Below are positions 11,573 through 51,010 of a stretch of DNA of 64,000 nucleotides, piece by piece. Source of the DNA: Limonium bicolor. Taxonomy: Eukaryota; Streptophyta; Magnoliopsida; Caryophyllales; Plumbaginaceae. The notes under the pieces are model-generated. The model made no database searches. It saw nothing but the letters and a program-made list of their open reading frames with translations, and was not told the DNA's origin. Where the stretch lies: positions 252,487,810-252,551,809 of the forward strand of contig CM041782.1 in the NCBI GenBank assembly GCA_023374045.1, read 5' to 3'. Each line of letters opens with the position of its first letter. Positions within the stretch are counted from its first letter, which is position 1. The position numbers and the translations under genes are program-made.

Positions 11573-11630
11573 AGAGTTTACGCCTCTGCACTCTGTATGA
11601 CTGAGTGTTTTGGTATTGCACTTGTGCAGT
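11573..11630 (+). ncRNA. 58-nt near-invariant segment B2 in E1
   Basis: This segment differs at one base from 33688-33745 in family A, although the surrounding sequence is not alignable by eye. It allows two exclusive folds: CACTC (11589-11593) with GAGTG (11603-11607) plus TGCA-CTTG-TGCA (11617-11628), or CTGCAC (11586-11591) with GTGCAG (11624-11629). It is called as a structured RNA element of the genomic transcript, not as an independent gene. Confidence 0.6.
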
Positions 11631-12309
11631 AATGAACGAGTGGGATAGCTAAGAATTGGAAACATGTTAATTGTGAAGCAAATGTGGAGGCATGATTAAC
11701 AGTAAGTGACTACAGTAGCACTAACTGCCAAATAGCGGTATGGAATATACCACAAATGTTGTAAATAGCTGAGAGAGCACTACATACTAGGTAGTAGCTC
11801 AATCTCAACCGACAGTAAGTCGGAAGGGAACAAGTCAATCATTGTGAAATACATAGCTGTATACATAGTAAACTACTATGGAAGTGGATAGAAAGTTTAT
11901 AACTCACCAAATTCGCTAACGGTAAAAGATACCACGCGTCGGTTGAGAAACCATTGTTACCAAGATGAAGGTGACACGTGGGGATATACAATACAGTACG
12001 AATAACAAATGGAGCAATTAAGCTCTACAGTTATTAGAGTTTCGCAGCAGAAACTAGTGAGCCAGTGATTCAAGTGTTGAATGTACATGGTGAACACGAG
12101 TGAATGGCTAATTATTAACGCCTAGAAGCCTAACAGGCCAGAATCGAAACTAACTAAGAGTTTAAGCAAACTCCAATGAGAATTCTTGGTTTAGGAACTA
12201 AACCGCCAATATGGTTAAGATCCTCTAATCAGAATCCATTGTGTAATAGACCGTGTGGAAGTTAGAACACTTCACGACGGCAGAACATTTAAGCCAATGT
12301 TTAGTGATT

Positions 12310-12346
12310 GATTACGTGGGCGTAATCCCTTTTAAGGGGGGTGGAG
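12310..12346 (+). promoter_or_regulatory. E1 central polypurine tract with upstream hairpin
   Basis: GATTACG (12310-12316) and CGTAATC (12321-12327) form a 7-bp stem with loop TGGG. Six bases later comes AAGGGGGGTGGAG (12334-12346), nearly the same as the true 3' polypurine tract 1.3 kb downstream. The arrangement recurs in A, E3 and E4. Confidence 0.7.
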
Positions 12347-12630
12347 CGCAAAGCCACTTAGTGAGTATTACCGTACAAGTATACGTGACCTATGTTGTGC
12401 ATGGCACAAAATAATTTGTTTGGATGATTGGTGTGTGTGTTACGTAAACATACGCATTCATTCATGGTTTAATTGTGGTAATTGCGCACAGAAGATGCGA
12501 ATACCATTGTGATAAGTGTGTGTGTATTTGGTAACAATTGTGTGTGATAATACAAGTGTGGGGAGTAGAGAAACTCCCGGGGAACAAAACCCCGACGGTG
12601 TATAAATGTAAACCACGTATTGTATTTTGA

Positions 12631-12892: not shown

Positions 12893-12972
12893 CTTGATTT
12901 GCATGTGATCAAGGGAAGCCGAACACAAATTGGAGTGGAAGGATAGTTCTACACTGATGCTGATCACATCAG
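12893..12972 (+). ncRNA. E1 palindromic-loop hairpins K1 and K2 (dimerisation-site-like)
   Basis: K1 (12893-12913) pairs CTTGAT with ATCAAG around a 9-nt loop that contains TGCA and CATG. K2 (12954-12972) pairs CTGATG with CATCAG around the 7-nt loop CTGATCA, whose last six bases are self-complementary. Between them is the conserved ACACAAATTGG stretch. A short stem with a 6-nt palindrome in its loop is the hallmark of kissing-loop RNA dimerisation signals in retroviruses. Function here is inferred from form and from conservation in A, E3 and E4. Confidence 0.6.
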
Positions 12973-13623
12973 GGTTGGATGATTCTTGAAGCTCCCTATA
13001 AGTGGTCACAAATAACCACGCTAAGAAAAGAAGCAAGAGCTTAAGTTGGACTTGGAGTTGTGTGTGCTTTCAAAAAGATTTTCAATTGGTATTTATAAAA
13101 CGTTGATAGATACTTTACATAATTAAAGTTCTCTTACTTAACCTCACAAGGAAAAAATTTCAAATTTAAGTGATTGTTTTAATCTCCCAAAGGCACGGGG
13201 ACGGAAGGTGTCCATCGCGACCGGGTTCTGCGGGATCACAGGTATATCAAAGATATTTTGATTGTTATACATGCTATGACATGTTGTGTGGTATGTGTAA
13301 TAATATTATTTTGACCTTGAGTTCCTAAAGTGTATGCTATTAAGACCTACGAGTCTAAATGTTGTGTTACATAGACCTATGTGTCTAAAGGTTGTTACGT
13401 TACCCAAGACCAGTGAGTCAAAGGGGTTGTTATGTATGTGTAAGTGTTGTTAGATACCCGGACCATTGAGTCCGAGGTTATCATGTGAATATGTTATGTT
13501 ATGTGTGGATGTGAATGTGTTGCCCGGACCATTAAGTGAGGTTGTGATGTAAAGTGTGTTTGGTTATGGAATTTTATGGCTGTAAGTAATCCCCGTATTC
13601 TAATCTATGATGTGTGGAAATGT

Positions 13624-23072: not shown

Positions 23073-23366
23073 TGAAATACCCCTAGATAATTAAACGCTA
23101 TTTTAATATATAAATAGCTATATTAAAGTATAAATAATCAAGCAAGTAATAACCTGCGAACAAACGAACAGTTATTATTACCGTACTTATATACATACGG
23201 ACATATATGTAAATGTACATAACGTTACAAGATTATAACGTTGTACACATAATCAAAACGCGACAAATAAAAATAGTCGTACATGTACATGTATACATAC
23301 AACTAATAACGCTACATATTAATAACAGTCACTTGTATACATTACATTGGCTTGATAGGCTGAAAC

Positions 23367-23458
23367 AAAAAAAAAAGAGCAAACCTGCTCCTCCAGTCGG
23401 GATTTGAACCCGAGACCTCTCGTACCTATCCCGAAACCTTAACCGCTTGAGCTGTGTT
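23367..23458 (-). other. tRNA-like unit with A and B boxes in LTR-a, antisense
   Basis: On the minus strand AGCTCAAGCGGTTAAGG (plus 23437-23453) resembles a tRNA A box, and GGTTCAAATCC (23400-23410) is a perfect B box inside a 5-bp T-arm (TCGGG / CCCGA, 23397-23413). Ten T residues (23367-23376) follow as a polymerase III terminator. The acceptor arms do not pair and the D stem is poor, so it is not a working tRNA. It looks like a SINE head or tRNA fossil with an intact internal promoter. Confidence 0.6.
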
Positions 23459-24083
23459 CGAATTCAGTATCAAATACCGACCAAATTAGATTAGTAGCTC
23501 GACTACTACTGTAACTACTTTAAAAAGAAAAGAGATTGAACAACGAACCAATCAGATTTCCCTTGTGCCACTTATTCCCTTGTTTCTTCCTCGTATTGCA
23601 CCTGTTCGAACAAAAAACGGTGCAGGACATGAATTTTTGCAAGTTATTCAAGGCCACTCTTTCACTCATTCATCGACCTCCTAATCTCCCTCCTGCCTCT
23701 GTAGTGCCATCTGACTCAAAGAAGCATAAAAGAGAGAGCAACAGACATGGGCATCATTCCCACACCATTGCCTCGTAACTCTCTTTACCTATTTTCTATA
23801 GTACCGTGAATCAGGGGAACAGCCACCACATGCTCTTTGTTATGTCTGACCACTTGAAACCCAAACCGAGAACCTCATACACACAAAATAATCGCTAGTG
23901 CCGGTTGTTGATTGCCACATAGGCAGTCAAGGGAGCATTCACCTGGGAGACCCCAAGCACCATCTGTTTCACTCTGATTTCAGTAAAAGTAGTACAAATG
24001 GTAGAAGGCGTGCAGCAGAGTTCGTTCCCTCTCAAGCCTCCATAAATTCCCTTGGGAATGCACAATCAGAAACAATTCATTAA

Positions 24084-24173
24084 GCTGCTGCGCCAAGCTC
24101 CTTGTGCTTCTGTCATTAGAGTAGTAACGCTGCTGCGTCAAGCTCTTTGTGCTTCTGTCATTAGAGTAATACC
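24084..24173 (+). repeat. 45-bp direct duplication in LTR-a
   Basis: Two adjacent copies, 24084-24128 and 24129-24173, share GCTGCTGCG, CTTTGTGCTTCTGTC-type and ATTAGAGTA blocks with a few substitutions. The same pair is present in LTR-b and LTR-c, so the duplication predates amplification of the array. Confidence 0.85.
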
Positions 24174-24769
24174 AGTGTCTCTGACGTTAATTAAAAACCT
24201 TGCTTCAGTCATCCTCCTTCACGTTCACCTGCCACGGTGATCTCCTGCTCAAAGTCTTACTCTTCCCCTCTGTTGTTTTGCTCATGCGTGAAGCTGGTGC
24301 ACAAGTCCCTGGGAACCCGGAACAATTAAACCCAAAGAACTAGCGAGGTAAAGACACTGCAACAAATCCTTTCCTTCTTCACTGTTTGATCTTGCCCGAG
24401 GTCTCATGCACTAGTCTCTCTAAGTCTAACCCTCTGTCCTCTCTATTCTAGTGTGTTAATCCCCTTGGTGGAACCAATCTGGAAGTGAGCCCAAAATCCC
24501 CAGCAAACTAGCCCCTGATCAAGGTAAGAAAAGCTGTTAAAATCTGTGCTTCTCTACACTTGCTAACAGCACTAAAACAAACAACGATTGAACATGACAT
24601 CTGGGTTTTTGTCCAGCTGTGAAAAGATATCAGGAAGTACCGAAGGCTAACCCAGGGAAGAACCATAGAGACACTCAAGAGGTGAGCTAGCTCTAAACCG
24701 AGTTGCATAACAAAAAAAAACACACAGCAAAACTGTCAAGCTTCAGTTATTAAGTGTTTCGAATTCAGT

Positions 24770-27290
24770 ATAACATGTTTTGCATAACAAAATCCTGAAG
24801 TGTTTTCCACATGGTTATGAACCTGTTTTGAGGTTAGGGCTACGTAGACACCTAACTAAGTAGTAGCTAACCTGAGAGTGTGAGGAAAACAGTCAACCTA
24901 TTGAAACAGGAATAAATAACCGCAGAAAATGCAAGGGATGATTTTCAGTTCTGAGTCTTTTGGGTTATGTATAGTTATGTTCAGTAGTGTAGTCATTGAT
25001 TGTTTTGGGTTGTCTTAAGACTAACACAGTAATAGAACATATGGCTAAGTAGTCAGACGAGTGGATAAGAAAGTTGGAAGTCAAACGGGTGAGCAAAACA
25101 GGAATGAAACAGGAGAAAGAAACATCAGTATCAGTTTCTGAAATTTAGTGCTTTTCTGTATATCACCCTCTCAGGGGTTTGGCCAATGTTTTGTGGTTTC
25201 CTTTGCGGGTAGAATCATAGTAAGAAACCTAACTAAACAACCAAATAACCTGGAAGAAAAAAAAACTGAAGGATAAGGTTAGTAAGTAACAGAAAGGAGT
25301 ATGTTCAGGTCCATGGTTTCCGTTTGTTTTAGTTCTGGGTATGGATTTTTCAGAAACGTTGTCCATGTGTTTCTGACCTGTTATGGGTTTAAAAATATCG
25401 ACTAAACACTAACTAAGTGGTTACAGCAATTGTGGGAGATAGGAAATCAAATTAGTGAAAAGAAAAAAAAGACAAGGTGGGAAGTAAACCATCAAGTGTA
25501 TCAGTTTTTTTTCCAGTTTCCCTTACAGTTTCACTAAGTTCTATATAGGTGAGTTCCAGTAGAGTTACCGGAACTGTTTAATTGGGGCTTATTCTGAACT
25601 TAACATCTTGGAAGTACACCGAATTAATTAGGTAGACAGTTTGGGGAAGTAGAAACCGAACTACAGAATGGAAATAGAAACAGAAGAGGGAAGATATAGT
25701 TTCAGATTTCGAAATTTCAGGTTTCTGATTCTGTGTACAGAGTGTTCAGAGAGATTTCATATGTGGATTTGGGTTGTCCAGGATTCGTAACCTCTGTTAA
25801 GCACTTAAGTCATGTGGGGGAACCAGTAGTTAGATTCCAAAAGAACTGAAAGGAGACAAAGGGAGTTATCAGATTTTGTTTAAGTTCAGTTTTATCAGTT
25901 CTGTCCAGTTTTTGTTTTGGATGCGCCTGTGTATTACCAAGGGTGTAAGGGATTGTATTGAGAGGATTATGAGCTTAAAGCCTTGCTAACTTATCTAACT
26001 AAGTGTAAACATCTTGGGGACACTGGAAGTCAAAATTCAAAAGTGAAGAGAAGGATTAAAAGCGAAGTTATCAGATGGGCATTTCAGTTTTCAGGTTTTG
26101 TATTAAACACTTCTCAGAGGGATTTGATGGAGTTGTATTGGGAGGTTAATGAACCCACACACATCTAACACAATTAAGTAAGTCATAAACATCTTGGGGA
26201 AAGATAAGAACCAGATTAACAAACAATAAGGAAACTGAAAGACAAATTCATGAACAGAAAGGAAAAAAATGGAGTATGTCAGTTCAGATTTCCACCAGTT
26301 TATGGGTTCTGTGTACTTAAGGATGAATTGGGTTGTCTTGAGGTTGAAGACCTGCTAACCCCTAGTTAACTGAGTAAGAGGATGGTGAGATGAAATGAAA
26401 ACAGATTCGTGAACTGACAGAAGGAATTAAGGAAGAAATAGCAGGATGCAATATTTCAGTTTATGCCTTGTTTTTGAAAGTTGTTCTCTGTATAACCCCT
26501 GTACAGAGGGCTTACAAGGGCAGTATTAAATGGTAAACAATCCTAGAACTTAACCAATACATTTAAGTAAGATATCAACACCTTGGGGATGATTTGGATA
26601 TCTGCTTGACAACTGACAGAGAAAGGGAGATGTTAATGCATCAGTGCAGTTTTCTTAGTTCTGTACGATGGGTTACAAAAAAATTTGCTAACAGTCTTAT
26701 CTTAAGTTTCTTAGGCTTGAGACTTCCTAGGGCACCTGACTAAGTGGGGAGCAGACCTTAGATGCAATGGAGACTGATTTATAACCAATAAGGGGGGTTA
26801 AAGGAGAGCTGTGCTGAATTAGAGTTTTCAGTCTTCTACAGTTTCGGTTTCTGTAAAATGAGTTTTCAGAGGTGTTAACATCATTGTTTTGAGGTTTCTT
26901 TAAGCTCAAATTCTTCCAAGTACAATTGTCTAGCGGTGTAAGAGTTTTGGGAAGTTTTGGAGACTGAACAGCAAGCTAAATAAAGACTTGAAGAGGGGAT
27001 ATATCAATAATGTTTTCAGTTTTTCCAGAAACTGTTGTCTCTGTATAAGAGTAGGACAGGTAACTTAAAGGTGTTAGAAAGAGTTAACAATGAACCCAAA
27101 ATCCTTCTAGGAGAGTGAACTAGGCTGGTACTTCCATTGGGAGTTTTAGGAATAAACTGAATAGCCTAAACAGGAACAATGAAGAAGAAACACACTGATG
27201 TTGTCTCTGAATTCTCAACAAATTGTTCCTTCTGTATAAGCAAGTTACGGAGGAGATTAAATTGTAATACAGCTCTAAGTTCTATAACCT
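24770..27290 (+). repeat. Degenerate satellite-like array in LTR-a, about 187-bp period
   Basis: A phrase like CTAACTAAGT recurs near 24850, 25045, 25222, 25410, 25622, 25803, 25992, 26168, 26358, 26560, 26738, 26922 and 27112. A TTCAGTTTCTG-type phrase follows at a regular offset (24946, 25131, 25310, 25500 and so on), and GGGTTGTCTTGAGG-type phrases lie between. Spacing averages about 187 bp over roughly 13 units. Units are highly diverged, so this is an old array trapped inside an LTR. It makes up more than a third of the LTR. Open frames here are incidental. Confidence 0.7.
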
Positions 27291-28835
27291 ATAATAATTA
27301 TGGTGGGATGGTGATGTTGCGAGGTAAAGGAAGTGCAATCTGATATATAAATGTTACCGGTAACAAGTGCAGCACGTTGTCAAACTTTGGATTGTATGTC
27401 ACTACAAGTTCTGATGTACAACACTAAATACTTACAACATGTTATAAGTTAGTAGGTGATATTAGAATTAAGGAGAACTAGATAATCAGGAGTCCTAATG
27501 CCACAAAGGCGTGTACCATTTCCGGTACACACTTAAAGCTACCGAAACCATAGATTATAAGTCTAGTGACACATAAAATATCGTACCATATAACATTATG
27601 GAAAAGATGTAACACAATAATATTATGTGACTAAGGGTATAGTTATTCAAGCTGTTATGCTAAATGCATACAGACATAAATAAAAACGTACCAAGAAATA
27701 AAGTTATACACTATGGTTACAACGACATAAAATACCAAGTTAGTATAAGACTTTGGTATGGTAAATAAACCCCGACTGAGATATCATAAGTGTACAACGT
27801 AAGGTTTCAAGCTCCGATGTAAACCGAGAATTAACTTCCACAACGAGTGAAGGGTTGTGGAATAATAATAATAATACTCTAACTAGCAACAAACGTTAAG
27901 TCTGGGGACATAGTACTGGGGTTTCAAATATTATTCGGGAATACCGAATTGTGCTGTCATGTGGATTGACGCTTAGTGTTCCTTGTATTACTAGATCGCA
28001 TTTCCGACGTACGCGCTCGAAAGCTCTAGTGGCCTGCACTGCACGAATCTAGACAACGGTGTACGGTATGTAAAGGGATTTGATCCGGGTTGTCCTGAGG
28101 AATTCCTCGGGCTCGGATTTGTTTGATAAATAACTTGTGTGAATGTATGTATGTGATGTATGTATGTGATGTATGTGTACGATGTGTAGTTATGTTCATG
28201 GCACTATTTATTTATGCACGAACGTCCTACGGGACTAATATTACGTCGACTATAGATCGACTTATATAAAACTACATATGCGAAATGTGTGCTGTGACCA
28301 CTGTTGTCAGACCTAATGCGCTAAGTATTACAAGTATGTAATTATAACTTAAGTAAAATACTTAGGAACGGGACACGACATTGTCGGTCTCTAGAGCTTT
28401 GACTCAAACGTGAATGTTACCTAGAATAATTCTAGGCATGCGTAAGACCCATAGGGCAGCCAACAAACTAAGTGATGTACTCCATAACAAAAACTGTAAC
28501 TGACTATCTAACTAACAAAGCTAACAGTGGAGTGTGAATGAATGTGATGATGTACCTTAATCCAGACAGTCACTGGCTGCTGGTCGCGCGTAGAGATCTC
28601 TTGGGATATCCCGTATCGGGGTTTCCCTAGTTAAATCCTGTTCGAGCCTAGATAGATCGTCAGGCGGAGTGTGCTACCGTTGGCACCAGGCCCTTGGCCA
28701 CCTAAATGGACGCCTCTACAAAGGCAAAGTGAATAGCCCAGAGTCTTCGGATGATCAGGGCAGTGAGCACCTTGTGTGTACGTGGGACTACAGTCCAAGT
28801 GAATATATTCGGGTTGTCCTAACTGACTCCCAACA

Positions 28836-28941
28836 GTGCTAACCAAAACTAATAATATGTGAGGGCCCGTGGGGCCGAATGTTGTACTGTGCTAACTAAA
28901 ACTAATGATATGTGAAGGCCCGGAGGGCCGAGTGATGTACT
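28836..28941 (+). repeat. 53-bp tandem duplication with GGCCC hairpins in LTR-a
   Basis: Units 28836-28888 and 28889-28941 each begin GTGCTAAC and contain GGCCC and GGGCC separated by a 3-nt loop, GTG in the first and GGA in the second. E1 has a GC-rich block with similar words near 8433. Confidence 0.8.
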
Positions 28942-29172
28942 ATGTGATGATGTTAACATACGATGAATGAGTTCTCAATGCCATTGTATTGTATGATGTA
29001 TGTCAGTAATGTGTATATCCATATATGACTGTTTGAATCGGATGAATGATTATATAATCATGCATGTTGTTACAGTAATTATTATATCTGTAAAATGACA
29101 AAGCATGAAATCAACCTAATATCAAGACGGATAAAAATGACAAGTGACCAATAGGGTCCAGATCCGGCATAC

Positions 29173-29208
29173 TCAGCGTCTATCGCTGATACTACACTTA
29201 TTGTGCAG
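29173..29208 (+). promoter_or_regulatory. LTR-a hairpin, pyrimidine-rich stretch and acceptor-like GCAG
   Basis: TCAGCG (29173-29178) pairs with CGCTGA (29184-29189). A short pyrimidine-containing stretch leads to TTGTGCAG at 29208, followed by GT. The sequence differs from the CCCC/GGGG hairpin of the other families but occupies the same place. Confidence 0.45.
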
Positions 29209-29591
29209 GTTGTTGAACACGTTGAAGCCGAAGTGCGGGATTGGGTAGTTAGGACATTGTTGATTTTGGATTTATCGTTCATACCTCGTTATGTATTAAA
29301 TGATTCCACTAAAAAGTGGTTGTAAGATTTGGATTATGTTTAGATGCTCACAGTAGTTGTGCTTTTGATACTTAGATAGAAATGTAGGTGGTATCTCGTC
29401 GTCACTGCGGATTGTATCTTTATGTTTAATTTTGTTAAAATGTTGTACTGCTACATCACTCGCATGGGCGAGTGGTGGCAAGTAACACCCATGTGAGTTC
29501 TATTACTGTAATTACTACCGCTGTGAGACGTCTTTATTTCCTGTTCACGTGAGCGACTATTACGTAATTATTATGAGGGGTGTTACAAAAG

Positions 29592-29619
29592 TGGTATCAG
29601 AGCGGAGTACCGCTCTGAT
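29592..29619 (+). promoter_or_regulatory. Family A primer-binding site inside a hairpin (internal-1)
   Basis: TGGTATCAGAGC is at 29592-29603. ATCAGAGCGG (29596-29605) pairs with CCGCTCTGAT (29610-29619) around loop AGTA, giving 10 perfect pairs. Confidence 0.9.
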
Positions 29620-30640
29620 GACGAGATACTAGGTAAAGACAGTGAGCTTAGGATTTGGGAAACTTGGGAAACGTTTGTGAGGTACGAAACGTCTGTGTTT
29701 TAATGAAATTATGTGTTGGCGGAGCCTTTGACCTGCAAGTGTAGCCCTTGGGGGCACACAAATGAGTTGATCGTATTACAGTGTGTTATTGAGGAGACGA
29801 ACGGTAATACCGACATCTAGTGGTGGTGTGAGCCAGGAAGCTGGCCAAGGGCATAAAGGCCCAGGAATATTACCCCTGTTAAGGTCCAGCTGAGAGCTCA
29901 GCCAGGAGGAGACACAAACGTCATGAGTACATTGGCGATAGTCCGCTTTTATGTGGGAGTCCAGTACGAACTACCGCCGACAGTACCCCTCCCGCCACAA
30001 CCCAATGAGTATAATACAACCAAGAAATATAATCCCCGAATATAGGGAAAAGGGCTACCAAGCCCAACAGACTGTCAAAACACTCTCGCAGTGAATGAAT
30101 AATTCCTGCTCCTGTAACATTTATACCACCTCAATGTCATACCTCCATTGACGACCAAGCGCCGTATCAATAGGCACTGCCGAGGCGAGCGTCACTACTA
30201 CTATAACGTCGTGGAAAGGATCACCCAAGAACATCAGGGCAAGCGAACCGGGAGCACCATGAACTCCGCGAGACCGTCGCCCGTAATAGGACCTTAACCA
30301 CCCAACTGTAAAAAGAAATTATCTGGAGAATGTGGAGGAACTTTGTGATAATACCGTCCTGTCATCCTCAAACTTCAATCCTAAACTTGTGTGCACACAA
30401 CACAATACAGTGACACTAGAACCCTATCGCGGCGGTACCTATAGGGAGACACTGTCCAAACGTTTGCGCAATTATAAATATAATGTGAGGAAGGACTTGA
30501 TTATCCTAATGACAATGTGGTCAGGAAAATTTCCCAAATCCAAATACCGTCTTATTCATGAACAATCACTCTAACAGTGCTTAAACAACCAATGCAGCAG
30601 TGAGACAAACAAGTCGGGAACCGACAACTCTACCTGCATG

Positions 30641-30718
30641 GCGCTTGCCACTGCAAGCGCTGATTTAAACAATGTACTAATGATTTCGTCTACCCCACGC
30701 ACTTGCCACTGCAAGTGC
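30641..30718 (+). other. Pair of P1 hairpins in internal-1
   Basis: The first hairpin has arms GCGCTTGC (30641-30648) and GCAAGCGC (30653-30660). The second has GCACTTGC (30699-30706) and GCAAGTGC (30711-30718). Both have loop CACT. The A-to-G change between copies is matched by T-to-C in the other arm. E1 has one copy at 9708. Confidence 0.75.
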
Positions 30719-31065
30719 TGCAAACAATTACAACTGCAGTTACCACTGCTATTATCGTTACAACGAATACTATAAACTGTGTAGACCTATGGTACGACAC
30801 CATGGCTACCAATAATCACCAAACAATTGTACACCTCTAGTATAAACTACATAACTACAATTGTTACCATAAACCTCTAAGATACGAGGCCTACAACCTC
30901 TGAAGGGACCGACGAGTCCGATTAACGCAATAAAAGGGGCACACCAGCCCATAACAAATTATAACTACTAAACGAGAACGAATGCAATGACACAGGCTGA
31001 AAGCCAAGATAACATAATGTAATTAACAAACCATTAAATGGCGGAATTGGAAGTGGGCGGTGAAA

Positions 31066-31145
31066 CCTGATTCCCGGGGATCAAGGGAAAACCAACCACA
31101 AATTGGGGTGAAAGGTTAGTGCAACACTGGTGCTGATCACACCAG
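31066..31145 (+). ncRNA. Palindromic-loop hairpins K1 and K2 in internal-1
   Basis: K1 (31066-31086) pairs CCTGAT with ATCAAGG, with one bulged base, around a loop containing CCCGGG. K2 (31127-31145) pairs CTGGTG with CACCAG around CTGATCA. Compared with E1 and E4, the A-T pair of K2 has become G-C by changes on both sides, while the loop is unchanged. Confidence 0.65.
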
Positions 31146-33107
31146 AGTCGTATGACTCCTGAAACTCTTCACAAGTTGCCAACATTAATTATAGTAAGGA
31201 TAAACAAAACTGCAGTATCCTAGTTACAAACAACTAGCAAAGGAAACTTGCGATTAACAGTTACGTTGTATATATATATTAAATCATACAAATAAAACTA
31301 TGAAGAGAATACGATCGTATAACGATCGCTGCCATACAGTTTCCAACTATACCGTATGCGCAGTATTTACTTATTCCCTTACATTTATATCTCATGAATT
31401 ATTCTCTCATATCTTATGTCACATTTCACCATCATCTTGAGGTAAGATGAATATTTGATTAGATGCATTATATTATGCGATATATATTAAGAACTTTATC
31501 TTAATATCTTGTCACATTTCAGGACAAAATTTAAAATTCCTAAGGTTTCATTTTATACTAACCTTAGGTTATAAATTCCATTTCTCATTATATATACTAT
31601 AACTCATACTTTTAATAAGAACTGTATTATTGCCAAAAGGCATGTACATCAAAATTCTTACTTCCACCAACTCCTAATACTTTTCCATTATTTCAGTATT
31701 GCCACATATTTAATAGATGTTATACACATCATACGTTATAACATTTTAACCTTATAATAAATGTAACTTATAGTTCACTAACTATAAGTACGTATACGCC
31801 AACCTGTGATGAACACAAGAGAGTTGGTAAAACGTATTAGTCCACAGATGGACCAAGAGTGAAAAGAACAATTCTACCGTAATACGGACATTACCAATAT
31901 CTTCGCAACAATGAACGCGAATCAACACTGAACACATGAATAATTACCACCTCTGAGCACTACCTTTACCAAGGAGTGCCATGTATGATTATGTACAATT
32001 AATAGTGATCAACGTCAAGATTAAGTTCTATATGTATTATCAATATCATACCGATTATGAAACAAGTCCGAGTAGAAGAATGGCTACCGCCATTGGCGTC
32101 CCGCCATGTAAAGAAAATGATAAATATCAATATATGTTAAAGACATGTTGTTTACTACTGTGACGACTGTCAGTGATGAATGAATGTGTAAGTTGAATCA
32201 ATGACAACCACCTAAATCGATATTACAAAACACACAAACCAAACGCTAAATAGCGTAAATAAGCAAGTACCTAATGTACAAATAAGGGGCATAAACTCAG
32301 GAGACCGGGAACACCGACTCCAGTTACCTTTCAAGGCATATTACTAACGTAACAATGTCTAAGTTAATAATGAAGCAATGGAGCTACGGTACATACCGTA
32401 AGCAATGTGAATAACAATGATGAATTACTAACAGGCGCCAAACCGCGCACTTGAAAAATAAATAACTGCAGTTACAAGTACTAGCACTAGACAATAAGTA
32501 ACAACAAAGACATTACTTACTAGCTGAATACCAGAAGTATATACCAGCATGTAATGCTAATCACTAATAGTGATAAATGTTTAGCCCTAATGGACAAACC
32601 TAATCTTATGAGGAAGAGCATACCCTTTGAGGATACAATACCATCAATGAGAATAGTTGGAAAGATGAAGAGCCAAGCTGCTCAAGCAATCATGCAATCT
32701 ACAATACACCCAATTAAACAAAAGAGGGAACGCACATAAATACCCAAGTATGAGAACTTACCCTACGCCGTATCGGGAAGCATAAGTAAGATATGATAAT
32801 GATTAAACCTGGAGGAAATAATTATGTATGTACTCATGGAGATCGAGATGGAAGAACTGACGTTGCTACCTGAGCACCGATATTACATAAACGATTGCAA
32901 CCATACGGACGAATCAACGTTCAACGTTCAACTGGTTAGTGACCAAGTGCTACCACTAATACGTTACCAAGGACATGAGTCCAGAGAACAAAAATACTGT
33001 TCCAACCACCTTACCACCATACTACTAGAACATTAGAACCTACGACAAGATAACCAATGTTGCGGACCAATCAACATCAAACTACAACAAGGACATCCAT
33101 CAAAAGG

Positions 33108-33260
33108 GAGATTGACAATAGAATACTTCACAATAGTCGTGTAACGGACGCTACCAGTTTACTAAACGAGACATGGGACGACCGCACTCCGATAGGAGCA
33201 TGTGGGCCTGACAGACTTATTTATAGGTTAGTCAGGTAAGTAGTAATGTATCAGTATGGT
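33108..33260 (+). other. Conserved block B1 in internal-1: nested hairpin over a perfect donor-like site
   Basis: Outer arms are CCTGAC (33207-33212) and GTCAGG (33231-33236); inner arms are ACTTA (33215-33219) and TAGGT (33224-33228) with loop TTTA. The outer stem differs from E1 at two base pairs, both compensated. The 3' arm overlaps CAG|GTAAGTA (33233-33242), a perfect match to the U1 snRNA consensus. Upstream is CTCC-GATA-GGAG. Confidence 0.65.
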
Positions 33261-33687
33261 ACCCCATGCTTGTAGACAAGTAGTGTTAGAAACACGAGAA
33301 GTAGTCACTATGCAGACCACCTCGAAGATGGACGAGAAGAGCCGCAGTTAACCAACGGGCTAGAGAAACCAAGAACCTACAACACAGAGTAGCGGTCAAC
33401 ACACAGTGAAGACAAGGAGACCCTTCGAAGATGACGAGGCAGATGACAGAAACAAGAAACCACTATATGGACGAATAATACGTAGAACCCTCATAAGGAT
33501 CATGCAAGTTCTTGCAATCCAGAGGAAATCTACCAGATGACGTAAACATAAACGCGTGACTACGCAATGATGAGAGACAAGCTAAATGCTAGCAGATACC
33601 TTAAGAAGGAATAATGGACTTGGAATGTACCACTCACATGATGATTCGCTCATCTTATCTGTTTAACTCTTTAGATATTAGCTGCTG

Positions 33688-33745
33688 AGAGTTTACGCCT
33701 CTGCACTCTGTAGGACTGAGTGTTTTGGTATTGCACTTGTGCAGT
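33688..33745 (+). ncRNA. 58-nt near-invariant segment B2 in internal-1
   Basis: This matches 11573-11630 of E1 with one difference, which falls in the loop between CACTC (33704-33708) and GAGTG (33718-33722). The alternative long-range pairing CTGCAC (33701-33706) with GTGCAG (33739-33744) and the hairpin TGCA-CTTG-TGCA (33732-33743) are both intact. Confidence 0.65.
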
Positions 33746-34287
33746 TATTAATCTAGTAGAAATACAGAAAGATGCAATGGATATCAACAAGAGTGTGTAA
33801 CAAAGATCTACAACAGCGTATTACCCTGGAACAAAACCACCAGGAAACACGGATGACAATCATCATCTACGTCGACATGTAGGCGGGTACGTCTTGGTAT
33901 TACAAAGACAAGTGCAAAGAGCACCAAGTACTAACAAGAGCCAATGTCATATTATACCTCAAACTGAATATCAATGGGAGAAGACACACGAATGTATGCT
34001 AGTGATCCAAATAAGAGGATACACAGTAATGAAAAGAGGAAATTGAGCCTATGTTCATGGGTCTGCACCTCATACAGAGCGAGTGGGCCCATTAGAACGA
34101 ACTTGGAAGAGAGCACAAATACGTGCCTCACCCTTTATATATTTAAGAGCCCGAAGGGGCTAGAGTCATACCCGTCTCTCTGATATGAGAATAATCTACT
34201 CCAAAGGTGAAAACACCACATAGAGTTAGAGAACTCTATGAGAGCCAAGTATCCAGCGCTCCTCGTAGAGCGGCTGTCGAATACTTG

Positions 34288-34895: not shown

Positions 34896-34928
34896 CTTCG
34901 GGACGAAGCCTCCTTAAGGGGGGTAGAC
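34896..34928 (+). promoter_or_regulatory. 3' polypurine tract with upstream hairpin, internal-1
   Basis: CTTCG (34896-34900) and CGAAG (34904-34908) form a short stem with loop GGA. AAGGGGGGTAGAC (34916-34928) abuts LTR-b. Confidence 0.85.
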
Positions 34929-35222
34929 TGAAATACCCCTAGATAATTAAACGCTATTTTAATATATAAATAGCTATATTAAAGTATAAATAATCAAGCA
35001 AGTAATAACCTGCGAACAAACGAACAGTTATTATTACCGTACTTATATACATACGGACATATATGTAAATGTACATAACGTTACAAGATTATAACGTTGT
35101 ACACATAATCAAAACGCGACAAATAAAAATAGTCGTACATGTACATGTATACATACAACTAATAACGCTACATATTAATAACAGTCACTTGTATACATTA
35201 CATTGGCTTGATAGGCTGAAAC

Positions 35223-35314
35223 AAAAAAAAAAGAGCAAACCTGCTCCTCCAGTCGGGATTTGAACCCGAGACCTCTCGTACCTATCCCGAAACCTTAACC
35301 GCTTGAGCTGTGTT
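35223..35314 (-). other. tRNA-like unit with A and B boxes in LTR-b
   Basis: Identical in its A box, B box and T-arm to the LTR-a copy, and with the same T10 terminator on the minus strand. Confidence 0.6.
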
Positions 35315-36619
35315 CGAATTCAGTATCAAATACCGACCAAATTAGATTAGTAGCTCGACTACTACTGTAACTACTTTAAAAAGAAAAGAGATTGAACAAC
35401 GAACCAATCAGATTTCCCTTGTGCCACTTATTCCCTTGTTTCTTCCTCGTATTGCACCTGTTCGAACAAAAAAACGGTGCAGGACATGAATTTTTGCAAG
35501 TTATTCAAGGCCACTCTTTCACTCATTCATCGACCTCCTAATCTCCCTCCTGCCTCTGTAGTGCCATCTGACTCAAAGAAGCATAAAAGAGAGAGCAACA
35601 GACATGGGCATCATTCCCACACCATTGCCTCGTAACTCTCTTTACCTATTTTCTATAGTACCGTGAATCAGGGGAACAGCCACCACATGCTCTTTGTTAT
35701 GTCTGACCACTTGAAACCCAAACCGAGAACCTCATACACACAAAATAATCGCTAGTGCCGGTTGTTGATTGCCACATAGGCAGTCAAGGGAGCATTCACC
35801 TGGGAGACCCCAAGCACCATCTGTTTCACTCTGATTTCAGTAAAAGTAGTACAAATGGTAGAAGGCGTGCAGCAGAGTTCGTTCCCTCTCAAGCCTCCAT
35901 AAATTCCCTTGGGAATGCACAATCAGAAACAATTCATTAAGCTGCTGCGCCAAGCTCCTTGTGCTTCTGTCATTAGAGTAGTAACGCTGCTGCGTCAAGC
36001 TCTTTGTGCTTCTGTCATTAGAGTAATACCAGTGTCTCTGACGTTAATTAAAAACCTTGCTTCAGTCATCCTCCTTCACGTTCACCTGCCACGGTGATCT
36101 CCTGCTCAAAGTCTTACTCTTCCCCTCTGTTGTTTTGCTCATGCGTGAAGCTGGTGCACAAGTCCCTGGGAACCCGGAACAATTAAACCCAAAGAACTAG
36201 CGAGGTAAAGACACTGCAACAAATCCTTTCCTTCTTCACTGTTTGATCTTGCCCGAGGTCTCATGCACTAGTCTCTCTAAGTCTAACCCTCTGTCCTCTC
36301 TATTCTAGTGTGTTAATCCCCTTGGTGGAACCAATCTGGAAGTGAGCCCAAAATCCCCAGCAAACTAGCCCCTGATCAAGGTAAGAAAAGCTGTTAAAAT
36401 CTGTGCTTCTCTACACTTGCTAACAGCACTAAAACAAACAACGATTGAACATGACATCTGGGTTTTTGTCCAGCTGTGAAAAGATATCAGGAAGTACCGA
36501 AGGCTAACCCAGGGAAGAACCATAGAGACACTCAAGAGGTGAGCTAGCTCTAAACCGAGTTGCATAACAAAAAAAAACACACACAGCAAAACTGTCAAGC
36601 TTCAGTTATTAAGTGTTTC

Positions 36620-39150
36620 GAATTCAGTATAACATGTTTTGCATAACAAAATCCTGAAGTGTTTTCCACATGGTTATGAACCTGTTTTGAGGTTAGGGCT
36701 ACGTAGACACCTAACTAAGTAGTAGCTAACCTGAGAGTGTGAGGAAAACAGTCAACCTATTGAAACAGGAATAAATAACCGCAGAAAATGCAAGGGATGA
36801 TTTTCAGTTCTGAGTCTTTTGGGTTATGTATAGTTATGTTCAGTAGTGTAGTCATTGATTGTTTTGGGTTGTCTTAAGACTAACACAGTAATAGAACATA
36901 TGGCTAAGTAGTCAGACGAGTGGATAAGAAAGTTGGAAGTCAAACGGGTGAGCAAAACAGGAATGAAACAGGAGAAAGAAACATCAGTATCAGTTTCTGA
37001 AATTTAGTGCTTTTCTGTATATCACCCTCTCAGGGGTTTGGCCAATGTTTTGTGGTTTCCTTTGCGGGTAGAATCATAGTAAGAAACCTAACTAAACAAC
37101 CAAATAACCTGGAAGAAAAAAAAAACTGAAGGATAAGGTTAGTAAGTAACAGAAAGGAGTATGTTCAGGTCCATGGTTTCCGTTTGTTTTAGTTCTGGGT
37201 ATGGATTTTTCAGAAACGTTGTCCATGTGTTTCTGACCTGTTATGGGTTTAAAAATATCGACTAAACACTAACTAAGTGGTTACAGCAATTGTGGGAGAT
37301 AGGAAATCAAATTAGTGAAAAGAAAAAAAAGACAAGGTGGGAAGTAAACCATCAAGTGTATCAGTTTTTTTTCCAGTTTCCCTTACAGTTTCACTAAGTT
37401 CTATATAGGTGAGTTCCAGTAGAGTTACCGGAACTGTTTAATTGGGGCTTATTCTGAACTTAACATCTTGGAAGTACACCGAATTAATTAGGTAGACAGT
37501 TTGGGGAAGTAGAAACCGAACTACAGAATGGAAATAGAAACAGAAGAGGGAAGATATAGTTTCAGATTTCGAAATTTCAGGTTTCTGATTCTGTGTACAG
37601 AGTGTTCAGAGAGATTTCATATGTGGATTTGGGTTGTCCAGGATTCGTAACCTCTGTTAAGCACTTAAGTCATGTGGGGGAACCAGTAGTTAGATTCCAA
37701 AAGAACTGAAAGGAGACAAAGGGAGTTATCAGATTTTGTTTAAGTTCAGTTTTATCAGTTCTGTCCAGTTTTTGTTTTGGATGCGCCTGTGATATTACCA
37801 AGGGTGTAAGGGATTGTATTGAGAGGATTATGAGCTTAAAGCCTTGCTAACTTATCTAACTAAGTGTGTAAACATCTTGGGGACACTGGAAGTCAAAATT
37901 CAAAAGTGAAGAGAAGGATTAAAAGCGAAGTTATCAGATGGGCATTTCAGTTTTCAGGTTTTGTATTAAACACTTCTCAGAGGGATTTGATGGAGTTGTA
38001 TTGGGAGGTTAATGAACCCACACACATCTAACACAATTAAGTAAGTCATAAACATCTTGGGGAAAGATAAGAACCAGATTAACAAACAATAAGGAAACTG
38101 AAAGACAAATTCATGAACAGAAAGGAAAAAAATGGAGTATGTCAGTTCAGATTTCCACCAGTTTATGGGTTCTGTGTACTTAAGGATGAATTGGGTTGTC
38201 TTGAGGTTGAAGACCTGCTAACCCCTAGTTAACTGAGTAAGAGGATGGTGAGATGAAATGAAAACAGATTCGTGAACTGACAGAAGGAATTAAGGAAGAA
38301 ATAGCAGGATGCAATATTTCAGTTTATGCCTTGTTTTTGAAAGTTGTTCTCTGTATAACCCCTGTACAGAGGGCTTACAAGGGCAGTATTAAATGGTAAA
38401 CAATCCTAGAACTTAACCAATACATTTAAGTAAGATATCAACACCTTGGGGATGATTTGGATATCTGCTTGACAACTGACAGAGAAAGGGAGATGTTAAT
38501 GCATCAGTGCAGTTTTCTTAGTTCTGTACGATGGGTTACAAAAAAATTGCTAACAGTCTTATCTTAGTTTCTTAGGCTGAGACTTCTCAGGGGACCTGAC
38601 TAAGTGGGAGCAGACCTTAGATGCAATGGAGACTGATTTATAACCAATAAGGGGGGTTAAAGGAGAGCTGTGCTGAATTAGAGTTTTCAGTCTTCTACAG
38701 TTTCGGTTTCTGTAAAATGAGTTTTCAGAGGTGTTAACATCATTGTTTTGAGGTTTCTTTAAGCTCAAATTCTTCCAAGTACAATTGTCTAGCGGTGTAA
38801 GAGTTTTGGGAAGTTTTGGAGACTGAACAGCAAGCTAAATAAAGACTTGAAGAGGGGATATATCAATAATGTTTTCAGTTTTTCCAGAAACTGTTGTCTC
38901 TGTATAAGAGTAGGACAGGTAACTTAAAGGTGTTAGAAAGAGTTAACAATGAACCCAAAATCCTTCTAGGAGAGTGAACTAGGCTGGTACTTCCATTGGG
39001 AGTTTTAGGAATAAACTGAATAGCCTAAACAGGAACAATGAAGAAGAAACACACTGATGTTGTCTCTGAATTCTCAACAAATTGTTCCTTCTGTATAAGC
39101 AAGTTACGGAGGAGATTAAATTGTAATACAGCTCTAAGTTCTATAACCTA
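36620..39150 (+). repeat. Degenerate 187-bp array in LTR-b
   Basis: Same array as in LTR-a, unit for unit, with a handful of indels. No unit gain or loss is visible between the LTRs, so the array is inherited as a block and is not expanding now. Confidence 0.7.
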
Positions 39151-41449
39151 TAATAATTATGGTGGGATGGTGATGTTGCGAGGTAAAGGAAGTGCAATCT
39201 GATATATAAATGTTACCGGTAACAAGTGCAGCACGTTGTCAAACTTTGGATTGTATGTCACTACAAGTTCTGATGTACAACACTAAATACTTACAACATG
39301 TTATAAGTTAGTAGGTGATATTAGAATTAAGGAGAACTAGATAATCAGGAGTCCTAATGCCACAAAGGCGTGTACCATTTCCGGTACACACTTAAAGCTA
39401 CCGAAACCATAGATTATAAGTCTAGTGACACATAAAATATCGTACCATATAACATTATGGAAAAGATGTAACACAATAATATTATGTGACTAAGGGTATA
39501 GTTATTCAAGCTGTTATGCTAAATGCATACAGACATAAATAAAAACGTACCAAGAAATAAAGTTATACACTATGGTTACAACGACATAAAATACCAAGTT
39601 AGTATAAGACTTTGGTATGGTAAATAAACCCCGACTGAGATATCATAAGTGTACAACGTAAGGTTTCAAGCTCCGATGTAAACCGAGAATTAACTTCCAC
39701 AACGAGTGAAGGGTTGTGGAATAATAATAATAATACTCTAACTAGCAACAAACGTTAAGTCTGGGGACATAGTACTGGGGTTTCAAATATTATTCGGGAA
39801 TACCGAATTGTGCTGTCATGTGGATTGACGCTTAGTGTTCCTTGTATTACTAGATCGCATTTCCGACGTACGCGCTCGAAAGCTCTAGTGGCCTGCACTG
39901 CACGAATCTAGACAACGGTGTACGGTATGTAAAGGGATTTGATCCGGGTTGTCCTGAGGAATTCCTCGGGCTCGGATTTGTTTGATAAATAACTTGTGTG
40001 AATGTATGTATGTGATGTATGTATGTGATGTATGTGTACGATGTGTAGTTATGTTCATGGCACTATTTATTTATGCACGAACGTCCTACGGGACTAATAT
40101 TACGTCGACTATAGATCGACTTATAAAAACTACATATGCGAAATGTGTGCTGTGACCACTGTTGTCAGACCTAATGCGCTAAGTATTACAAGTATGTAAT
40201 TATAACTTAAGTAAAATACTTAGGAACGGGACACGACATTGTCGGTCTCTAGAGCTTTGACTCAAACGTGAATGTTACCTAGAATAATTCTAGGCATGCG
40301 TAAGACCCATAGGGCAGCCAACAAACTAAGTGATGTACTCCATAACAAAAACTGTAACTGACTATCTAACTAACAAAGCTAACAGTGGAGTGTGAATGAA
40401 TGTGATGATGTACCTTAATCCAGACAGTCACTGGCTGCTGGTCGCGCGTAGAGATCTCTTGGGATATCCCGTATCGGGGTTTCCCTAGTTAAATCCTGTT
40501 CGAGCCTAGATAGATCGTCAGGCGGAGTGTGCTACCGTTGGCACCAGGCCCTTGGCCACCTAAATGGACGCCTCTACAAAGGCAAAGTGAATAGCCCAGA
40601 GTCTTCGGATGATCAGGGCAGTGAGCACCTTGTGTGTACGTGGGACTACAGTCCAAGTGAATATAATTCGGGTTGTCCTAACTGACTCCCAACAGTGCTA
40701 ACCAAAACTAATAATATGTGAGGGCCCGTGGGGCCGAATGTTGTACTGTGCTAACTAAAACTAATGATATGTGAAGGCCCGGAGGGCCGAGTGATGTACT
40801 ATGTGATGATGTTAACATACGATGAATGAGTTCTCAATGCCATTGTATTGTATGATGTATGTCAGTAATGTGTATATCCATATATGACTGTTTGAATCGG
40901 ATGAATGATTATATAATCATGCATGTTGTTACAGTAATTATTATATCTGTAAAATGACAAAGCATGAAATCAACCTAATATCAAGACGGATAAAAATGAC
41001 AAGTGACCAATAGGGTCCAGATCCGGCATACTCAGCGTCTATCGCTGATACTACACTTATTGTGCAGGTTGTTGAACACGTTGAAGCCGAAGTGCGGGAT
41101 TGGGTAGTTAGGACATTGTTGATTTTGGATTTATCGTTCATACCTCGTTATGTATTAAATGATTCCACTAAAAAGTGGTTGTAAGATTTGGATTATGTTT
41201 AGATGCTCACAGTAGTTGTGCTTTTGATACTTAGATAGAAATGTAGGTGGTATCTCGTCGTCACTGCGGATTGTATCTTTATGTTTAATTTTGTTAAAAT
41301 GTTGTACTGCTACATCACTCGCATGGGCGAGTGGTGGCAAGTAACACCCATGTGAGTTCTATTACTGTAATTACTCCGCTGTGAGACGTCTTTATTTCCT
41401 GTTCACGTGAGCGACTATTACGTAATTATTATGAGGGGTGTTACAAAAG

Positions 41450-42925: not shown

Positions 42926-43005
42926 CCTGATTCCCGGGGATCAAGGGAAAACCAACCACAAATTGGGGTGAAAGGTTAGTGCAACACTGGTGCTGATCAC
43001 ACCAG
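42926..43005 (+). ncRNA. Palindromic-loop hairpins K1 and K2 in internal-2
   Basis: Same sequence as in internal-1: the K1 loop contains CCCGGG, and K2 has arms CTGGTG / CACCAG around CTGATCA. Confidence 0.65.
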
Positions 43006-46793: not shown

Positions 46794-47083
46794 TGAAATA
46801 CCCCTAGATAATTAAACGCTATTTTAATATATAAATAGCTATATTAAAGTATAAATAATCAAGCAAGTAATAACCTGCGAACAAACGAACAGTTATTATT
46901 ACCGTACTTATATACATACGGACATATATGTAAATGTACATAACGTTACAAGATTATAACGTTGTACACATAATCAAAACGCGACAAATAAAAATAGTCG
47001 TACATGTACATGTATACATACAACTAATAACGCTACATATTAATAACAGTCACTTGTATACATTACATTGGCATGATAGGCTG

Positions 47084-47178
47084 AAAAAAAAAAAAGAGAG
47101 CAAACCTGCTCCTCCAGTCGGGATTTGAACCCGAGACCTCTCGTACCTATCCCGAAACCTTAACCGCTTGAGCTGTGT
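47084..47178 (-). other. tRNA-like unit with A and B boxes in LTR-c
   Basis: Same A box, B box and T-arm as LTR-a; the terminator on the minus strand is 12 T residues, and the adjoining few bases differ slightly. Confidence 0.6.
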
Positions 47179-48479
47179 TCGAATTCAGTATCAAATACCG
47201 ACCAAATTAGATTAGTAGCTCGACTACTACTGTAACTACTTTAAAAAGAAAAGAGATTGAACAACGAACCAATCAGATTTCCCTTGTGCCACTTATTCCC
47301 TTGTTTCTTCCTCGTATTGCACCTGTTCGAAAAAAAAACGGTGCAGGACATGAATTTTTGCAAGTTATTCAAGGCCACTCTTTCACTCATTCATCGACCT
47401 CCTAATCTCCCTCCTGCCTCTGTAGTGCCATCTGACTCAAAGAAGCATAAAAGAGAGAGCAACAGACATGGGCATCATTCCCACACCATTGCCTCGTAAC
47501 TCTCTTTACCTATTTTCTATAGTACCGTGAATCAGGGGAACAGCCACCACATGCTCTTTGTTATGTCTGACCACTTGAAACCCAAACCGAGAACCTCATA
47601 CACACAAATAATCGCTAGTGCCGGTTGTTGATTGCCACATAGGCAGTCAAGGGAGCATTCACCTGGGAGACCCCAAGCACCATCTGTTTCACTCTGATTT
47701 CAGTAAAAGTAGTACAAATGGTAGAAGGCGTGCAGCAGAGTTCGTTCCCTCTCAAGCCTCCATAAATTCCCTTGGGAATGCACAATCAGAAACAATTCAT
47801 TAAGCTGCTGCGCCAAGCTCCTTGTGCTTCTGTCATTAGAGTAGTAACGCTGCTGCGTCAAGCTCTTTGTGCTTCTGTCATTAGAGTAATACCAGTGTCT
47901 CTGACGTTAATTAAAAACCTTGCTTCAGTCATCCTCCTTCACGTTCACCTGCCACGGTGATCTCCTGCTCAAAGTCTTACTCTTCCCCTCTGTTGTTTTG
48001 CTCATGCGTGAAGCTGGTGCACAAGTCCCTGGGAACCCGGAACAATTAAACCCAAAGAACTAGCGAGGTAAAGACACTGCAACAAATCCTTTCCTTCTTC
48101 ACTGTTTGATCTTGCCCGAGGTCTCATGCACTAGTCTCTCTAAGTCTAACCCTCTGTCCTCTCTATTCTAGTGTGTTAATCCCCTTGGTGGAACCAATCT
48201 GGAAGTGAGCCCAAAATCCCCAGCAAACTAGCCCCTGATCAAGGTAAGAAAAGCTGTTAAAATCTGTGCTTCTCTACACTTGCTAACAGCACTAAAACAA
48301 ACAACGATTGAACATGACATCTGGGTTTTTGTCCAGCTGTGAAAAGATATCAGGAAGTACCGAAGGCTAACCCAGGGAAGAACCATAGAGACACTCAAGA
48401 GGTGAGCTAGCTCTAAACCGAGTTGCATAACAAAAAAAAACACACACAGCAAAACTGTCAAGCTTCAGTTATTAAGTGT

Positions 48480-51010
48480 TTCGAATTCAGTATAACATGT
48501 TTTGCATAACAAAATCCTGAAGTGTTTTCCACATGGTTATGAACCTGTTTTGAGGTTAGGGCTACGTAGACACCTAACTAAGTAGTAGCTAACCTGAGAG
48601 TGTGAGGAAAACAGTCAACCTATTGAAACAGGAATAAATAACCGCAGAAAATGCAAGGGATGATTTTCAGTTCTGAGTCTTTTGGGTTATGTATAGTTAT
48701 GTTCAGTAGTGTAGTCATTGATTGTTTTGGGTTGTCTTAAGACTAACACAGTAATAGAACATATGGCTAAGTAGTCAGACGAGTGGATAAGAAAGTTGGA
48801 AGTCAAACGGGTGAGCAAAACAGGAATGAAACAGGAGAAAGAAACATCAGTATCAGTTTCTGAAATTTAGTGCTTTTCTGTATATCACCCTCTCAGGGGT
48901 TTGGCCAATGTTTTGTGGTTTCCTTTGCGGGTAGAATCATAGTAAGAAACCTAACTAAACAACCAAATAACCTGGAAGAAAAAAAAACTGAAGGATAAGG
49001 TTAGTAAGTAACAGAAAGGAGTATGTTCAGGTCCATGGTTTCCGTTTGTTTTAGTTCTGGGTATGGATTTTTCAGAAACGTTGTCCATGTGTTTCTGACC
49101 TGTTATGGGTTTAAAAATATCGACTAAACACTAACTAAGTGGTTACAGCAATTGTGGGAGATAGGAAATCAAATTAGTGAAAAGAAAAAAAAGACAAGGT
49201 GGGAAGTAAACCATCAAGTGTATCAGTTTTTTTTCCAGTTTCCCTTACAGTTTCACTAAGTTCTATATAGGTGAGTTCCAGTAGAGTTACCGGAACTGTT
49301 TAATTGGGGCTTATTCTGAACTTAACATCTTGGAAGTACACCGAATTAATTAGGTAGACAGTTTGGGGAAGTAGAAACCGAACTACAGAATGGAAATAGA
49401 AACAGAAGAGGGAAGATATAGTTTCAGATTTCGAAATTTCAGGTTTCTGATTCTGTGTACAGAGTGTTCAGAGAGATTTCATATGTGGATTTGGGTTGTC
49501 CAGGATTCGTAACCTCTGTTAAGCACTTAAGTCATGTGGGGGAACCAGTAGTTAGATTCCAAAAGAACTGAAAGGAGACAAAGGGAGTTATCAGATTTTG
49601 TTTAAGTTCAGTTTTATCAGTTCTGTCCAGTTTTTGTTTTGGATGCGCCTGTGATATTACCAAGGGTGTAAGGGATTGTATTGAGAGGATTATGAGCTTA
49701 AAGCCTTGCTAACTTATCTAACTAAGTGTGTAAACATCTTGGGGACACTGGAAGTCAAAATTCAAAAGTGAAGAGAAGGATTAAAAGCGAAGTTATCAGA
49801 TGGGCATTTCAGTTTTCAGGTTTTGTATTAAACACTTCTCAGAGGGATTTGATGGAGTTGTATTGGGAGGTTAATGAACCCACACATCTAACACAATTAA
49901 GTAAGTCATAAACATCTTGGGGAAAGATAAGAACCAGATTAACAAACAATAAGGAAACTGAAAGACAAATTCATGAACAGAAAGGAAAAAAAATGGAGTA
50001 TGTCAGTTCAGATTTCCACCAGTTTATGGGTTCTGTGTACTTAAGGATGAATTGGGTTGTCTTGAGGTTGAAGACCTGCTAACCCCTAGTTAACTGAGTA
50101 AGAGGATGGTGAGATGAAATGAAAACAGATTCGTGAACTGACAGAAGGAATTAAGGAAGAAATAGCAGGATGCAATATTTCAGTTTATGCCTTGTTTTTG
50201 AAAGTTGTTCTCTGTATAACCCCTGTACAGAGGGCTTACAAGGGCAGTATTAAATGGTAAACAATCCTAGAACTTAACCAATACATTTAAGTAAGATATC
50301 AACACCTTGGGGATGATTTGGATATCTGCTTGACAACTGACAGAGAAAGGGAGATGTTAATGCATCAGTGCAGTTTTCTTAGTTCTGTACGATGGGTTAC
50401 AAAAAAATTTGCTAACAGTCTTATCTTAAGTTTCTTAGGCTTGAGACTTCCTAGGGCACCTGACTAAGTGGGGAGCAGACCTTAGATGCAATGGAGACTG
50501 ATTTATAACCAATAAGGGGGGTTAAAGGAGAGCTGTGCTGAATTAGAGTTTTCAGTCTTCTACAGTTTCGGTTTCTGTAAAATGAGTTTTCAGAGGTGTT
50601 AACATCATTGTTTTGAGGTTTCTTTAAGCTCAAATTCTTCCAAGTACAATTGTCTAGCGGTGTAAGAGTTTTGGGAAGTTTTGGAGACTGAACAGCAAGC
50701 TAAATAAAGACTTGAAGAGGGGATATATCAATAATGTTTTCAGTTTTTCCAGAAACTGTTGTCTCTGTATAAGAGTAGGACAGGTAACTTAAAGGTGTTA
50801 GAAAGAGTTAACAATGAACCCAAAATCCTTCTAGGAGAGTGAACTAGGCTGGTACTTCCATTGGGAGTTTTAGGAATAAACTGAATAGCCTAAACAGGAA
50901 CAATGAAGAAGAAACACACTGATGTTGTCTCTGAATTCTCAACAAATTGTTCCTTCTGTATAAGCAAGTTACGGAGGAGATTAAATTGTAATACAGCTCT
51001 AAGTTCTATA
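48480..51010 (+). repeat. Degenerate 187-bp array in LTR-c
   Basis: Same array as in LTR-a and LTR-b with the same unit count by eye. Confidence 0.7.

Follow-up and report, generated by a model that had tools for sequence, protein, structure and literature searches.

To our knowledge, the route by which the RNA of non-coding plant retrotransposons enters helper particles is poorly understood, and the locus analyzed here, a 64-kb window of the Limonium bicolor genome, raises the question of whether a pair of neighboring hairpins with palindromic loops, K1 and K2, could act on such RNAs as a dimerization signal. The elements that carry the pair had been labeled retrotransposons in a preliminary description, and this was borne out by LTRs (TGAAATACCCC...GGGGTGTTACA), a PBS (TGGTATCAGAGC) and a PPT (TTAAGGGGGGTAGA). 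Self-BLAST of the window revealed a tandem array, A, arranged as LTR-internal-LTR-internal-LTR over 30 kb (pos. 23073–53260), whose repeats are 98.9–99.4% identical. Its LTRs lie at 23073–29587 (ends read), 34929–41445 and 46794–53260, all on the plus strand, as are all features below. The PBS of A is located just inside the LTR end (29592–29603, with a second at 41450) and partly within a hairpin, and the PPTs (34914–34927, and another at 46779) each adjoin the next LTR. Element E1 has a 5′ LTR at 4384–8878 (self-BLAST, ends read), a PBS at 8884–8895 and a PPT at 13646 (both read from the sequence), and a 3′ LTR that starts at 13661 and whose self-BLAST match ends near 17829; there TGTAATACCCC begins, which resembles the start of another LTR. 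E3 and E4 are 3′ parts only, with the 3′ internal parts retained beside LTRs at 54938–59232 and from 60967, respectively, and one end is missing in each of E1, E3 and E4.

LTR length ranged from 4.3 to 6.5 kb, and A and E1, in both of which the TG...CA-type ends were read, contain the direct repeats, PBS and PPT of plant-type LTR retrotransposons. We take the PBS to match plant initiator tRNA-Met, and the LTR ends and PPT to be chromovirus-like (Tekay/Del-like lineage). Comparison of the flanks of array A (GCACAAAAGG and GCATGTGCAG) revealed no adjoining 5-bp target-site duplication, with which an origin by recombination could be consistent. The longest stop-to-stop reading frame in the whole window was 179 aa. 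A Pfam scan of ten stop-free pieces, two in or across LTRs and eight internal, gave no match; the internal pieces were 8 of the 39 listed of at least 60 aa from the internal domains of A and E1. Within the pieces scanned, the elements thus combine long LTRs with an internal domain without gag or pol, as LARDs do, and A, E1, E3 and E4 are apparently non-coding (LARD-like) plant-type LTR retrotransposons. A coding origin of the hairpin region was rejected as well: the blocks in A and E4 contain stops in all six frames, an 80-aa antisense frame of E1 is broken in E4 and A, and the variable columns among E4, E1 and E3 are spread evenly over codon positions (9, 9 and 9).

Self-comparison of the window located all five K1-K2 copies of the preliminary description: 31066–31145 and 42926–43005 in A, 12893–12972 in E1, 54328–54407 in E3 and 60232–60311 in E4. 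The two A copies are identical, leaving four distinct sequences (E1, E3, E4 and A), and all comparisons of the region rest on these four independent sequences from one 64-kb window. In the first A copy, K1 occupies 31066–31085, with the loop 6-mer CCCGGG at 31073–31078 and one C-A mismatch or bulge in the stem, and K2, found by folding and by a strict hairpin scan, occupies 31127–31145 with the loop CTGATCA. The corresponding K1 loops are GCATGT (12901–12906) in E1, TGATCA (54336–54341) in E3 and TCTAGG (60240–60245) in E4, followed by K2 at 12954–12972, 54389–54407 and 60293–60311, respectively. The described spacing of 40 nt between the hairpins holds in E1, E3 and E4, but is 41 nt in A, where K1 is one base shorter. 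The K1 and K2 hairpins were confirmed as real. Together with possible extensions of their stems they form a domain of about 115 nt (31053–31168 in A), hereafter K.

Analysis of the four K1 hairpins revealed a loop that has changed entirely between arms that have not: none of the seven loop columns was identical, in comparison with 5/7 and 7/7 in the arms. All eight of the alignment columns 22–29 vary among E1, E3 and E4 (hypergeometric 1e-6), so the loop sequence has been lost and its symmetry kept. Self-complementarity of the loops was even more extensive than had been claimed, since the whole 6-mer (UCUAGG in E4, GCAUGU in E1, UGAUCA in E3, CCCGGG in A) pairs with itself in 4/4 sequences and in one register when G-U wobble is allowed; the argument that it was kept while the loop changed proved true of K1, with 12/12 self-pairing cells. 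Pairing is Watson-Crick throughout in E3 and A and includes two G-U positions each in E1 and E4, and the inner 4-mer of every K1 loop is a strict Watson-Crick palindrome. UGAUCA of K2 stands at positions 2–7 of a 7-nt loop, and the K1 words of E1, E3 and E4 share this register; the K1 loop of A, one base short, was brought into it by a gap placed by hand just before the 6-mer. When gap-free windows of six columns were compared along the 136-column alignment, 12/12 self-pairing was confined to the K1 and K2 loops. The hairpin with a 6-nt self-complementary apical loop that characterizes a retroviral-type DIS is therefore present strictly in K2 and with wobble in K1.

The inner four loop bases have no possibility of pairing with one another within one strand, and pairing in trans between two RNA copies is therefore the best reading of their symmetry. 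Kissing of K1 with K2 inside one RNA was considered and rejected, as 6/6 pairing is available in E3 alone, whose K1 and K2 loops are both UGAUCA. Each K1 word forms 6/6 pairs with itself and 1–5/6 with the other K1 words, an orthogonality that is also expected of unrelated palindromes and is no evidence on its own. Folding indicated that part of the K1 loop can close within the strand in E4 and A.

The stem of K1 is weaker than the preliminary description had implied, with no two-sided change, a single one-sided change and the C-A mismatch or bulge in A; the RNA structure proposed there was upheld for K2, through the larger hairpin SL2. Folding and alignment identified K2 as the apical part of SL2, a 64-nt, 21-bp bulged hairpin located at 31105–31168 in the first A copy (20/21 consensus pairs), 12932–12995 in E1, 54367–54430 in E3 and 60271–60334 in E4. 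In the gap-free alignment of the four elements, 83 of the 84 base-pair cells pair, a proportion that fell to 40–49% when the partner was slid by 1–3 columns. Three pairs have changed on both sides (GC/AU/GU, UG/GU/UA and AU/GC/GU); the within-pair shuffle control for SL2 was weak, with 39/500 shuffles reaching the observed values. The K2 stem is CTGRTG/CAYCAG, and its variable pair is, as described, A-U in E1 and E4, G-U in E3 and G-C in A. The loop CTGATCA was found in 4/4 distinct sequences, and this invariance means that the K2 loop itself offers no test of covariation. G-U pairs account for 13/83 paired SL2 cells and favor the sense strand, and the four-element strand test of SL2 gave z = −4.8 for sense (0/300) versus −2.9 for antisense (3/300).

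Column shuffling gave an alignment-fold z of −5.6 for the whole K domain, with 0/300 shuffles as low, and of −4.9 for SL2, −4.3 for K1 alone and −2.7 for K2 alone. SL1, a possible extended stem around K1 with a GUG...CAC base (31053–31099 in the first A copy), reached −3.0 (3/300 shuffles as low); its base pairs are invariant and hence without covariation support, and one of two alignment folds paired the SL1 base elsewhere. Pieces of different length differed in what they folded into. SL2 with the loop CUGAUCA was the best fold of the isolated 65-nt piece in 4/4 sequences, with a few inner pairs added in E1, 1.7 kcal/mol below the consensus form, and with one pair fewer in A. A 91-nt K1-K2 piece without the 3′ half of SL2 formed K2 in E1 only, a 116-nt piece formed it in E1, E3 and E4 while A folded another hairpin instead, and a 240-nt piece formed it in 4/4 with K1 failing in E1. 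The strict scan, which required a stem of 6 bp and a Watson-Crick 6-palindrome within the loop, found K2 in 4/4 elements and K1 in E3 only; hairpins with such palindromes in the loop were also found outside K, most of them in an AT repeat of E1.

In these elements the strongest structure lies outside K, which three other islands outscore. At the threshold used, five stretches of the A and E1 internal domains align: the PBS leader, K, the islands B and C, and an internal PPT-like tract (iPPT). The two-sequence fold z of A versus E1 was −9.0 for B, −6.2 for the PBS hairpin, −4.8 for C, −3.5 for K and −1.8 for the internal PPT tract. Within K, this pair of sequences showed no excess of two-sided changes (4 versus a mean of 3.2; 82/200), and single-sequence folding around K gave unremarkable z values in A and E1 alike (−1.7 to +1.0). 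In a three-element scan, K reached −3.0 at best, with antisense values there to −3.4, and z was −6.4 at 12190–12307, within 12112–12365. This latter region, which leads up to and covers the internal PPT of E1, E3 and E4, comprises eight overlapping scan windows with z of −2.0 to −6.4 in sense and −2.7 to −5.9 in antisense. Hairpins exceeded shuffles in 6/7 regions of the window.

The order of the stretches is PBS-K-B-C-iPPT-PPT in A and PBS-B-C-iPPT-K-PPT in E1, so that K is still recognizable despite its changed place. K1 starts 1479 bases past the end of the 5′ LTR in A and 610–768 bases upstream of the 3′ LTR in E1, E3 and E4; in none of the four is it in the 5′ leader or near the PBS, the location expected of a retroviral-type DIS.

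The strongly structured island B of A (33104–33306) matches 10102–10302 of E1 with 81% identity; its two-sequence fold contains 64 pairs, none incompatible, of which 6 changed on both sides against a shuffle mean of 2.4 (6/200 as many). Island C of A (33677–33751) matches E1 11562–11636. In both A (29596–29619) and E1 (8888–8911), a hairpin, ATCAGAGC...GCTCTGAT, sequesters part of the PBS. The extra internal PPT-like tracts (E1 12332–12345; A 34312 and 46178; E3 53729, with two mismatches; E4 59680) lie 0.6–1.3 kb upstream of the LTR and are preceded in E1, E3 and E4 by a conserved GATTACG-TGGG-CGTAATC hairpin; such a tract is possibly a second plus-strand start or a relic. GCRCTTG...CAAGYGC hairpins, read by eye twice in A (30640–30725) and at about 9705–9730 in E1, may be another shared structured motif.

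Searches for relatives of these regions gave no convincing counterpart. Narrow exact patterns of K had no match in viral contigs and genome contigs, nor had that of island C in genome contigs or those of island B and the internal PPT hairpin in viral contigs. The bare K2 core occurred in four viral contigs with flanks that look unrelated, and these occurrences were accordingly taken as chance. All 13 Rfam matches scored below the gathering scores and were likewise taken as chance, among them SNORD90 over the K region of E4 (26.9 bits versus 41, E 3.6), and a plasmid search returned 21 records, the 20 listed ones at E = 1. No description of the K motif was found in the parts of the literature searched, where subscription journals were thinly covered.

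Three accounts of K other than RNA dimerization were weighed. The self-complementary K1 loops could be chance among many hairpins, with SL2 alone functional or inherited. This would fit the small number of loops (four, selected by the reader who described them, two needing wobble), the regional excess of hairpins over shuffles and the recovery of K1 in E3 alone by the strict scan. Because K1 had been picked for its palindromes, the chance figures are conditional on that choice: with a common register and the gap placement in A allowed for, self-complementarity arose in 6/150,000 sets of four simulated loops, in 131/150,000 sets of three when one loop was taken as ancestral, and in 14/200,000 draws of real 8-9-mers from the four internal domains, rising to 207/150,000 (four) and 956/150,000 (three) when each loop was allowed its own register. 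The common-register simulations (4e-5 to 9e-4), and the lack of any other variable gap-free alignment window at 12/12, make chance an improbable explanation. A cause at the DNA level, namely quasi-palindromes from template switching, cruciform repair or a dyad-symmetric DNA-binding protein, with the RNA reading accidental, gains from the fact that, as DNA, the stems and loops form inverted repeats, that the antisense strand folds too (z −2.9 in the strand test and to −3.4 in the scan), and that the loop and stem axes of K1 coincide in A. However, K2 and the K1 hairpins of E1, E3 and E4 have a loop dyad displaced from the stem axis by half a base, so that loop and stem there are not one DNA palindrome; the 13 G-U cells of SL2 are asymmetric in DNA, and four unrelated 6-mers would hardly be tolerable for a protein site. 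We regard this cause as very improbable.

A third account gives weight to shape rather than to loop pairing: K would be a psi-like Gag-binding or packaging structure, or an element for export or stability; the shape of SL2 would matter, the palindromes would be incidental and no loop-loop dimer would form. SL2 is indeed the better-supported structure, the K2 loop is invariant as expected of a protein site, and strong structure also marks B, C and the PBS hairpin, with no K-like palindromic loop seen there by eye. Such an account leaves a freely changing K1 loop that stays self-complementary in the register of K2 unexplained, and we consider it somewhat unlikely. The reading we prefer, with a probability of about 0.5, is that K is a cis-acting RNA signal of LARD-like elements, most likely joining genomic RNAs by kissing loops. 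K is accordingly presented as a candidate dimerization signal.

In the proposed mechanism, the K1 and K2 loops would kiss in trans and thereby join two genomic RNA copies, before or during their packaging into particles of an autonomous partner. Gag of this helper may recognize the K domain, and loop kissing would presumably serve packaging or reverse transcription. A more specific version, which we hold to be unlikely, is that K1 constitutes a fast-changing homotypic code, with a private self-complementary 6-mer for each family, while the invariant UGAUCA of K2 pairs with any member. If true, the K1/K2 duo would strike a balance between self-recognition on one side and mixed packaging and recombination among parasites sharing one helper on the other. 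A compact domain with such a loop code would make swaps of loops predictive of which RNAs dimerize together, and the other structured islands are further candidate cis-signals.

Among known systems, the barley elements BARE1 and BARE2 are Ty1/copia elements, and BARE2 lacks gag only. Gag-less BARE2 is described as retaining "conserved dimerization and packaging signals" and as being packaged in partner particles (PMC3735527); the K elements resemble it, by description, as plant elements without their own Gag. They also resemble LARD and TRIM elements in having no gag, pol or env, and array A resembles, by description, the tandem LTR-internal arrays reported for the TRIM Cassandra; the sections of that source available to us name no kissing-loop pair and no islands like K, B or C for LARD or TRIM (PMC7215508). 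Ty1 and Ty3 contain dimeric RNA in particles, and palindromic PAL sequences have been suggested to mediate Ty1 dimers; in the portion of the source covered, the Ty1 sites are associated with the 5′ end and the tRNA-annealing region, unlike K, and no comparable hairpin pair is described (PMC4974528).

The closest comparison is with retroviruses. K differs from a retroviral DIS in its loops of 7 nt (N plus a 6-mer, with 6 nt in K1 of A), in its place outside the 5′ leader, in belonging to an apparently non-coding element, and in combining a changing loop with an invariant one. K would work like a DIS and, given its location outside the 5′ leader and a dimer that is predicted only, is not classed as a member. 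MuLV SL-A and SL-B are palindromic stem-loops, the HIV-1 DIS loop is palindromic, and gammaretroviruses have several such palindromic hairpins next to one another (PMC5874298). Like HIV-1 SL1 and MuLV SL-A/SL-B as portrayed there, K is a stem-loop structure with a short palindrome that would permit kissing between RNAs.
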